Shown piece after piece: positions 22,107 to 23,301 of a stretch of DNA of 34,031 nt. The notes below the pieces were generated by a model, which made no database searches, had not been told where the DNA came from, and saw only the letters and a program-made list of their open reading frames with translations. Where the stretch lies: contig CALUPN010000015.1 in NCBI GenBank assembly GCA_944322625.1, forward strand, positions 1 through 34,031, read 5' to 3'. Numbering within the stretch: the stretch's first letter is position 1; every line of letters begins with the position of its first letter. A program made the translations under genes and the position numbers. The stretch is from Candidatus Gastranaerophilales bacterium (lineage in GTDB: Bacteria; Cyanobacteriota; Vampirovibrionia; Gastranaerophilales; Gastranaerophilaceae).

Positions 22107-22135
22107 TAGACAGCCCCAAAAAGTTATAGTAAGAT
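22107..22135 (+). promoter_or_regulatory. Promoter of the structured RNA element
   Basis: TAGACA (22107-22112), a 17-bp spacer and TAAGAT (22130-22135). Six bases later, at 22142, begins the first closing strand of the RNA (ACAGGGT), so the predicted 5' end coincides with the structure's edge. Confidence 0.55.
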
Positions 22136-22141
22136 AATTTT

Positions 22142-22362
22142 ACAGGGTAAAAGATACCTTTTCGAAAGAGGAACCGCTACACATTCATTCAAGCTTCGGG
22201 TTGGTTCCCGACTAGAAAGGGGGCTGATATGGATAATTTCAATTTAAGTTTATTATTAATCTTTTTGATTTTATACATATTAAATAACGGTTCTTACCCG
22301 AATAAGTAAGAACCGTTCAAGCTTCTAAAGGTATCCGGCAGTCTGGTAAACTGCCACCCTGT
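22142..22362 (+). ncRNA. Structured RNA element with 5'-3' closing stem and internal small ORF
   Basis: Paired segments read by eye: closing stem ACAGGGT (22142-22148) with ACCCTGT (22356-22362); GATACCTTT (22153-22161) with AAAGGTATC (22327-22335); GGAACC (22170-22175) with GGTTCC (22203-22208); a perfect 12-bp hairpin AACGGTTCTTAC/GTAAGAACCGTT (22286-22317); and GGCAGT/ACTGCC (22337-22355) abutting the closing stem. CTTT-TCG-AAAG (22158-22168) can form locally and competes with the long-range 9-bp pairing. AAGCTT occurs at 22191 and 22319 and could pair as a pseudoknot. A 26-codon hydrophobic ORF lies in the middle. The design resembles type I toxin mRNAs, whose 5' and 3' ends pair; an alternative is a miniature transposable element. 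I do not recognise an existing family. Confidence 0.5.
22229..22309 (+). CDS. 26-residue hydrophobic peptide (candidate type I toxin or membrane microprotein)
   Basis: ATG at 22229 with AAAGGGGG five bases upstream, one of the best ribosome binding sites in the window. The product is MDNFN, a hydrophobic stretch LSLLLIFLILYIL (residues 6-18), then a polar tail NNGSYPNK. One membrane-spanning helix with a short polar or charged end is typical of type I toxins and of other bacterial membrane microproteins. The stop codon lies within the right arm of the 12-bp hairpin 22286-22317, so folding and translation would interfere. No antisense promoter is clear by eye. The frame is short enough to occur by chance; the strong ribosome binding site and the surrounding structure are the arguments for it. 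Confidence 0.5.
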   Translation: MDNFNLSLLLIFLILYILNNGSYPNK

Positions 22363-22464
22363 ATTTATATTATTTACTATGTCCGACCGTTTGTCAAGAT
22401 AAGATAAAAATAGCAGTAGTGTATAGTTTGCTCAACAACTGCCTATGATAATTTTTAAAAATCC

Positions 22465-22625
22465 TGTCATTCTGAAAGTGCAGAAAAATTAATTTATTTA
22501 AAACGGTTAATTTTTCGCACTGTTCAGAATCTTACCAATCAGGCAATGCCTTTTGGTTTCGGTAAGATCCTGAACAGATTGAAAAACTACACTTTCGTTT
22601 GTTTTTCTAATCTTTCAGGATGACA
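22465..22625. repeat. Three-armed (cloverleaf-like) inverted-repeat element
   Basis: Outer stem TGTCATTCTGAAAG (22465-22478) with CTTTCAGGATGACA (22612-22625), one wobble. Inside are three hairpins in a row: 22478-22520 (GTGC-A-GAAAAATTAA with TTAATTTTTC-GCAC), 22520-22577 (CTGTTCAGAATCTTACC with GGTAAGATCCTGAACAG, 17 bp with one wobble) and 22581-22607 (GAAAAAC/GTTTTTC). Palindromes built on GTCATTCTGA...TCAGGATGAC with AATCTT cores occur widely as intergenic repeats in bacteria; this appears to be a compound member. No ORF or transposase is present. Confidence 0.7.
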
Positions 22626-22694
22626 TTTTATTAAATGTCAGAGTATTATTGTTGATATTTATATTGAAATTTTTGCGAAGCAAGCTCTAAATAC

Positions 22695-23036
22695 TCACTG
22701 TTTCCAATAAACATGAAAATTTCTTATTTCTTCTAAAGTTTCATCATAATTACCTTTAAAACAGATTGCTCTATCGTCAATATACAAATAAGACGGTATT
22801 TTTATATTAGTTACATCTTTAAAATATTTATCTAACTTATTATCCACTAACCATTTAGAAGTTAGAAGCAAATTTCTTGATGTAAAAAGATATAACTCCA
22901 TTTCACAAGATAATTTTTCTAAAAAATCTCTGGCACCATTTTTTAAACTCGGAATATAATTTTCGCTATAAGCTTCTCTGCCATAATAATTAAGCACCCC
23001 GTCTAAATCTACCAAAATTCTTCTTTTTTTAGCCAT
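22695..23036 (-). CDS. Small HAD-superfamily phosphatase-like protein
   Basis: A 113-residue minimal HAD fold. Motif I is VDLDGVLN (nucleophile Asp10, acid/base Asp12), motif II LFTSRN (52-55 region), a possible motif III lysine at 77-79, and motif IV YLYIDDRAICFKG (Asp87, Asp88). Such capless HAD proteins, often found in phages and on plasmids, are annotated as nucleotidase- or polynucleotide-phosphatase-like hydrolases; the substrate is unknown. AGGA lies about ten bases before the ATG. The promoter TTGTCC-N17-TATAAT on the minus strand overlaps the divergent XRE gene start, so the regulator probably controls this gene. Confidence 0.75.
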   Translation of the reverse strand: MAKKRRILVDLDGVLNYYGREAYSENYIPSLKNGARDFLEKLSCEMELYLFTSRNLLLTSKWLVDNKLDKYFKDVTNIKIPSYLYIDDRAICFKGNYDETLEEIRNFHVYWKQ

Positions 23037-23037
23037 T

Positions 23038-23096
23038 TTGTCCGTCCTACGGTTTGTTTACATTGTCATTATAGCGGACAATTTTATTATGGACAA
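23038..23096. promoter_or_regulatory. Overlapping divergent promoters and repeated operator half-sites
   Basis: Minus-strand promoter for the HAD gene: TTGTCC (23096-23091), 17 bp, TATAAT (23073-23068). Plus-strand promoter for the XRE gene: TTGTTT (23054-23059), 17 bp, GACAAT (23077-23082), then six bases to ATG. An inverted repeat ATTGTC (23062-23067)/GACAAT (23077-23082) lies between, and TTGTCCG (23038-23044) mirrors CGGACAA (23075-23081). These look like repressor half-sites. Confidence 0.55.
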
Positions 23097-23301
23097 GATT
23101 TTGTTACAAAAGCTTGCAAACAGGATCAAAGAATTGAGAAAAGTTTACGGTTATACACAAGATGATCTTTCGCATCTTGCACAAATCGGACGCTCAACTT
23201 TGGGAAACATTGAAACTGCTCAAAATGATATTACTTTCTCAAAATTAAATAAAATTGCAAAAGCTTTTAATTTGTCCTTAGCAGAATTTCTTAATTTTTA
23301 G
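23089..23301 (+). CDS. Small XRE-family regulator (70 aa)
   Basis: Nearly the whole protein is one Cro/C1-type HTH: LANRIKELRKVYGYTQDDLSHLA, recognition helix region RSTLGNIETAQNDITFSKL, and IAKAFNLSLAEFLNF. The ATG at 23089 is preferred to the upstream ATG at 23038, because the domain begins just after MDKILLQ and the 17 upstream residues would overlap the divergent promoter. No Shine-Dalgarno sequence precedes it; GACAAT lies six bases upstream, which fits a leaderless transcript. It is divergent from the HAD gene and probably represses both. A perfect hairpin 54 bp after the stop may end the transcript. Confidence 0.82.
   Translation: MDKILLQKLANRIKELRKVYGYTQDDLSHLAQIGRSTLGNIETAQNDITFSKLNKIAKAFNLSLAEFLNF

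Follow-up and report, generated by a model that had tools for sequence, protein, structure and literature searches.

What kind of element occupies positions 22107 to 22362 of our window (the whole stretch of 34,031 nucleotides that was analyzed), where a highly structured sequence encloses a 26-codon hydrophobic open reading frame? The original prediction had proposed an unnamed type I toxin-antitoxin system similar to Hok or AapA. Comparison supported this proposal, the nearest plan being that of Fst/par combined with an AapA/Hok-like closure of the 5' and 3' ends, with toxicity and transcripts still unproven. We consider it very likely that the element belongs to a hitherto undescribed family of type I toxin-antitoxin modules, with the reservation that all the evidence is comparative, that the sequences come mostly from metagenome-assembled genomes, and that toxicity, silencing and transcripts are inferred.

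The features listed in the original prediction, namely, the promoter, closing stem, 9-bp stem, 12-bp hairpin, ORF and Shine-Dalgarno (SD) sequence, were all present where it had placed them. A weak plus-strand promoter, TAGACA-N17-TAAGAT (22107-22135; 9/12 match), precedes the inferred full-length toxin mRNA (22142-22362, plus strand), whose 3' end is uncertain and which is delimited by core boundaries common to the copies and by a 5'-3' helix selected on the plus strand. The two ends of this mRNA form a closing stem between ACAGGGT (22142-22148) and ACCCTGT (22356-22362), the latter complementary to the start of the antisense RNA; 98.8% of the cells of this stem were paired in 59 copies, and its sequence is nearly invariant, without covariation. 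Further inside lies a perfect 9-bp long-range helix between GATACCTTT (22153-22161) and AAAGGTATC (22327-22335), with which a local 5' hairpin predicted in the isolated leader (22145-22149 with 22155-22159) shares bases and competes. The leader then carries a direct repeat, DRa (TTCAAGCTTC, 22188-22197), and a nearly invariant SD sequence (AAAGGGGG, 22216-22223), followed by the ORF (MDNFNLSLLLIFLILYILNNGSYPNK, 22229-22309), which is predicted to encode a single hydrophobic helix. A 12-bp hairpin (22286-22297 with 22306-22317) overlaps the last codons of the ORF and contains its TAA stop (22307-22309). Downstream are the second direct repeat, DRb (TTCAAGCTTC, 22316-22325), in the same orientation as DRa, and a GGCAGT/ACTGCC hairpin (22337-22355). 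Folding of 22142-22375 gave -70.9 kcal/mol, compared to -46.8 ± 4.3 kcal/mol for shuffled sequences (z = -5.7), and since the reverse strand folds with an equal score, folding alone cannot assign the structure to a strand.

The same element, with the same ACAGGGT/ACCCTGT boundaries, was found in many of the 57 relatives searched, often several times per genome. A pattern of the conserved leader matched 86 stretches in GTDB genomes, mainly from those named Candidatus Gastranaerophilales or Melainabacteria, the others being for the most part gut or rumen bins, and a second search, restricted to the genus, yielded further copies. The collected loci yielded 103 distinct full-length copies, almost all of them from Candidatus Gastranaerophilales, an order of non-photosynthetic Cyanobacteriota; a first script found the start in 98 of them, and 90 were left once near-duplicates had been removed. 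A covariance model of the antisense RNA matched 135 of 383 genomes sampled within the order. With a single exception these belong to one family, and the exception, which lies in a different family, is a genuine homologue that has an ORF and paired repeats (CTTCGATTTC) of its own. In a sample of 386 genomes spanning the phylum, 72 matched this model, every one of them in Gastranaerophilales, and none outside the order did. Presence is patchy among close relatives, and tandem arrays of two to four copies occur. The genome under study holds a second copy with a truncated toxin part and a whole antitoxin part. At L002/L195 (G000 C114 4263-4387, in the genome under study) and at L017 the toxin half is lost and the antisense RNA, promoter and repeat are whole; these might be orphan antitoxins. 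Rfam returned only chance-level matches, none at gathering score, and a known RNA family was thus rejected. The core pattern had no match in IMG/VR, and none was found in the phage and plasmid collections.

Beside the module, the window contains AT-rich imperfect inverted repeats (22462-22630; TCATTCTGAAAG ... CTTTCAGGATGA) that resemble a dispersed intergenic repeat. The adjoining region 22695-23301 holds a small minus-strand protein with a weak Pfam match to NIF phosphatase (HAD-like), divergent from a 70-amino-acid XRE-type helix-turn-helix protein.

The ORF encodes 26 amino acids in most copies and 29 in one subgroup. It was intact in about 99 of the 102 copies that could be judged, the exceptions being one without a stop, one without a start and one with a frameshift (a further copy, cut by a contig end, was left outside the 102). 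In the part of the ORF that precedes the hairpin, pN/pS was 0.39 in frame, and codon position 2 was by far the least variable, as expected if hydrophobicity is kept. The ORF is under purifying selection. That the conserved hydrophobic peptide is a toxin acting on the membrane is our inference, and its toxicity is untested. The peptides matched no model in Pfam or NCBIfam, and PHROGs contained nothing for them, so that a known peptide family was rejected. HOK_GEF (PF01848) matched neither the peptides nor anything else in the genome, and the PXXXG(C) motif was absent from the peptides. No match to the Fst model PF13955 was found in the genome either, a result of limited weight since control genomes also lacked a match above cutoff and the sensitivity of the model is not shown.

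Six loci (L003, in the genome under study at G000 C25 near 13649, and L030, L040, L041, L042 and L043) have only the antisense promoter and RNA start in common with the family. On the opposite strand, following AAAGGAGG, they encode different small hydrophobic peptides, e.g., MVDKIIMLLLAFAISVIALKLHQLYGAEGF and MIEKIIMLLIVATLFIVAFKLIQL, in the same overall plan. Judging from the sequence, they probably represent a second family of toxins whose antisense RNA is of the same type.

The original prediction had seen no clear antisense promoter, and this part of it failed. The top promoter-like site of the region is a strong minus-strand TTGACA-17-AATAAT (22397-22369; 11/12), and a promoter of at least 9/12 is kept there in 84/88 copies, compared to 13% expected. 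The toxin promoter, in turn, reached 9/12 in 50 of 87 copies (17% expected) and was not found in all of them. On the basis of this difference in conservation, and without transcript data, it is likely that the antitoxin has a strong promoter and the toxin a weak one. The sole terminator-like site of the region is likewise on the minus strand, at the stop-codon hairpin (22317-22286). For the toxin mRNA, no clear terminator was found, and the sequence has no U-run 3' of this hairpin on the plus strand. The putative antisense RNA (22280-22362, minus strand) would be about 82 nt long, with ends that are unmapped; it is matched by covariance model R1 at 22362-22270 (97.4 bits) and backed by promoter, covariation and wobble.

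Because a G-U pair turns into an A-C mismatch when the opposite strand is read, wobble pairs can reveal the strand on which a helix is selected, and we counted them in 59 aligned copies, which also served for the covariation of the 5'-3' helix. The stop-codon hairpin (22286-22317) contained 147 cells pairing on the minus strand only and 2 pairing on the plus strand only. At pair 162-185 the toxin has a Gly codon, either GGC or GGT. Although GGT there would allow plus-strand pairing and leave the peptide unchanged, 45/59 copies harbored the combination that pairs on the minus strand only. The original prediction had read this 12-bp hairpin as a stem of the toxin mRNA; this must be corrected, as the wobble pairs make it primarily a structure of the antisense RNA, whose terminator it likely is, given the minus-strand wobble, the compensatory changes and a T-run in the copies. 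The hairpin beside the minus-strand start (22337-22355) showed the same direction, with 42 minus and 9 plus wobble cells and with compensatory changes, and in the antisense fold as a whole 14 pairs had compensatory changes. Promoter, terminator and strand-specific covariation together make it likely, on comparative evidence only, that an antisense RNA complementary to the toxin mRNA exists. More generally, separate counts of G-U wobble for the two strands make it possible to assign convergent RNAs even where transcript data are lacking.

The 5'-3' closing helix had the opposite bias (81 plus and 25 minus wobble cells). The competing local 5' hairpin constrains its columns as well, and this bias is thus not independent evidence for long-range pairing. 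Homologues with compensatory stem changes, whose absence the original prediction had named as a refutation, were found: compensatory changes occur in all eight inner pairs of the helix, and the outer seven are nearly invariant and little informative. The covariation score of 0.329 exceeded that of shuffled alignments (0.201 ± 0.010), none of 500 of which reached it, and slid controls did not exceed 0.160.

A competing view of the locus is that it is a miniature inverted-repeat transposable element, or a REP-like repeat, in which the ORF is incidental. It could point to the inverted ends ACAGGGT/ACCCTGT and to the dispersal of the copies, whose 190 flank sequences fall into 100 clusters. None of four features, however, would be expected of a pair of transposon ends: an intact ORF under purifying selection, two opposed promoters, helices selected on particular strands, and the paired variable repeats described below. 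Broken ORFs beside persisting stems, which would have favored such an element, were almost never seen, and the conservation of the ORF thus speaks against it. We rejected this explanation on ORF integrity and strand-specific structure and regard it as very unlikely, in the absence of data on target-site duplications.

The 7- to 10-nt sequence of the direct repeats differs between copies and agrees within a copy. The mean agreement between DRa and DRb was 8.14 nt, compared to 4.58 nt when partners were permuted, with a maximum of 5.12 nt in 5,000 permutations. As the copies are related, these numbers are not exact probabilities, and for that reason we ran controls limited to relatives and to copies with the same SD. 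Against close ORF relatives the agreement still held (8.15 versus 4.75 nt, P = 1e-15). A match of at least 7 nt, with a sharp end at its 3' side, was present in 74/88 copies and lacking in about 14/88. Those 74 copies represent 21 repeat types, and on a tree of the element without its repeats the type changed at least 39 times. Copies within one genome, including those in tandem arrays, share no repeat, their non-cognate matches averaging 3.9 nt with a maximum of 7.

Could the repeats agree merely because both act in cis as anti-SD elements on the same SD, without any pairing between antisense RNA and leader? The 3' part of the repeat can indeed pair with the SD; repeats pair with their own SD side better than with those of others (-5.49 versus -5.03 kcal/mol, P = 0.01) and better than shuffled repeats do (-3.84 kcal/mol), and several successive anti-SDs are known in aapA3 (PMC6733600). 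However, copies with an identical SD side still match their own DRb (8.76 versus 4.95 nt; 8.52 versus 5.03 nt), so that the agreement cannot be put down to a common SD target. Moreover, the repeat spans 7 to 10 nt and its SD-pairing part only about 6, and paralogues in one genome have no common repeat. We therefore rejected cis anti-SD action as the sole cause, an explanation that we hold to be unlikely, while both roles, in cis and in trans, may hold together. Pairing of the antisense RNA in trans with DRa is the simplest remaining explanation, inferred without silencing data.

How repeats change was visible next to a panE-like gene (loci L169 and L171), where sister genomes differ in the version of the module that they carry. 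In one of them, the module at the orthologous site has near-identical flanks, and both of its repeats are changed to TTGAGACTTC. A third genome carries both versions in tandem at this site, which suggests reciprocal loss, and a fourth has nothing there. Elsewhere, at L107 (4373-4596), L010 and L117, the leader and antisense repeats disagree (e.g., TAGTCTTC versus CTTCGATTTC in L107); recombinants or inactive modules are conceivable here. A bolder reading, toward which we lean with some caution, is that Gastranaerophilales maintain a large and fast-changing type I repertoire in which the 7- to 10-nt repeat serves as an exchangeable address and in which new private pairs arise by tandem duplication, recombination and reciprocal loss (21 addresses and at least 39 switches), thus uniting Fst-like addressing and AapA/Hok-like closure in one module of about 290 bp.

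The mechanism that we propose is backed by comparison as regards its two-RNA anatomy, the coding selection, the closing helix and the repeat rule; its other steps are inferred. The weak plus promoter would give an mRNA of about 221 nt encoding the 26-amino-acid single-helix hydrophobic peptide, and the strong minus promoter a convergent structured RNA of about 82 nt spanning the 3' third of that mRNA. The latter would carry the complement of DRb and hence, the repeats being alike, of DRa in the toxin leader. The nascent mRNA may be held silent by the local 5' hairpin and by DRa-SD pairing; once finished, its two ends would pair with each other and the 5'-3' helix would lock it. Removal of about 35 nt from its 3' end would open it, if AapA3 is a guide. 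Abundant antitoxin would contact the mRNA via complementary hairpin loops and pair with DRa, which lies a short way 5' of the SD, as well as along the 3' end, blocking translation or triggering cleavage. Pairing with DRa could, it is true, release the SD from DRa, and the step at which translation is blocked is therefore unsettled. Were the supply of antitoxin to stop, the peptide would be made and would act on the membrane. With a private repeat per copy, paralogues would coexist without cross-silencing.

The peptide might instead be a small membrane regulator controlled by a convergent antisense RNA, with no role in killing. In favor of this, conservation of the peptide shows selection for a function but not for which one, and data on toxicity are lacking. 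However, the many near-equivalent paralogues with private repeats and tandem arrays fit the turnover of toxin-antitoxin modules better than they fit a housekeeping regulator, and so do the copy in the genome under study that has lost part of its toxin but kept its antitoxin part and the patchy presence among close relatives. A nontoxic regulatory pair thus appears unlikely.

The addressing recalls Fst/par_pAD1 of Enterococcus and other Firmicutes, with which the module shares convergent promoters, a toxin mRNA of similar size (~230 nt in Fst), a short antisense RNA, a pair of direct repeats crossed by both RNAs, an SD-masking stem, and repeats that are poorly conserved between systems, thought to prevent cross-talk (PMC7472228). 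In par_pAD1 itself, the repeats, the terminator loops and the SD-masking stem act in the manner proposed here (PMC7472228). In contrast to Fst/par, the peptide here is unrelated by Pfam and lacks the PXXXG(C) motif, the terminator hairpin serves the antisense strand rather than both (wobble occurs on the minus strand only) and overlaps the end of the ORF, a covarying 5'-3' long-range helix is present, and the phylum is another one.

That helix recalls AapA/IsoA of Helicobacter pylori, in which the toxin mRNA (~225 nt) is likewise closed by 5'-3' long-distance pairing, the SD is sequestered and transient hairpins form in the nascent leader (PMC6733600), features of which the last two are only predicted here. 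The 225-nt AapA3 mRNA becomes active only once 35 nt have been trimmed from its 3' end (PMC6733600), whereas such trimming is only inferred here. The peptide here appears unrelated to AapA by sequence, judging only from its lack of any Pfam or NCBIfam match, and the antisense RNA differs in starting at the 3' end of the module and in carrying a repeat that matches the leader. Hok/Sok of enterobacteria and plasmid R1 shares the metastable 5' hairpin, 5'-3' pairing and coupled covariation (as cited in PMC6733600), but our genome has no HOK_GEF match and the position of the antitoxin differs; direct repeats are not known in Hok/Sok.

Before a 2025 paper described the first candidate from cyanobacteria, the known type I systems, by that paper's account, all came from Proteobacteria, Firmicutes and Tenericutes (PMC12390103). 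The cyanobacterial system, MsoT1/MsoA1 of Microcystis aeruginosa, belongs to the same phylum as ours and likewise has an antisense RNA complementary to the 3' end and 3' UTR of the toxin, whereas MsoT1 is 63 amino acids long with two predicted membrane helices (PMC12390103). For Gastranaerophilales or Melainabacteria, the open-access literature searched contained nothing relevant on type I systems. The present family occurs in more than 100 genomes of the gut lineage of this phylum and had gone undetected by Pfam, NCBIfam, PHROGs and Rfam, and its many natural pairs with differing repeats make the gain and change of antisense RNA specificity directly testable. We do not class it under Fst or Hok, as neither toxin family matched and the terminator is not bidirectional; by analogy, the module probably resembles a type I toxin-antitoxin system that joins the addressing of Fst/par to the mRNA closure of AapA or Hok.
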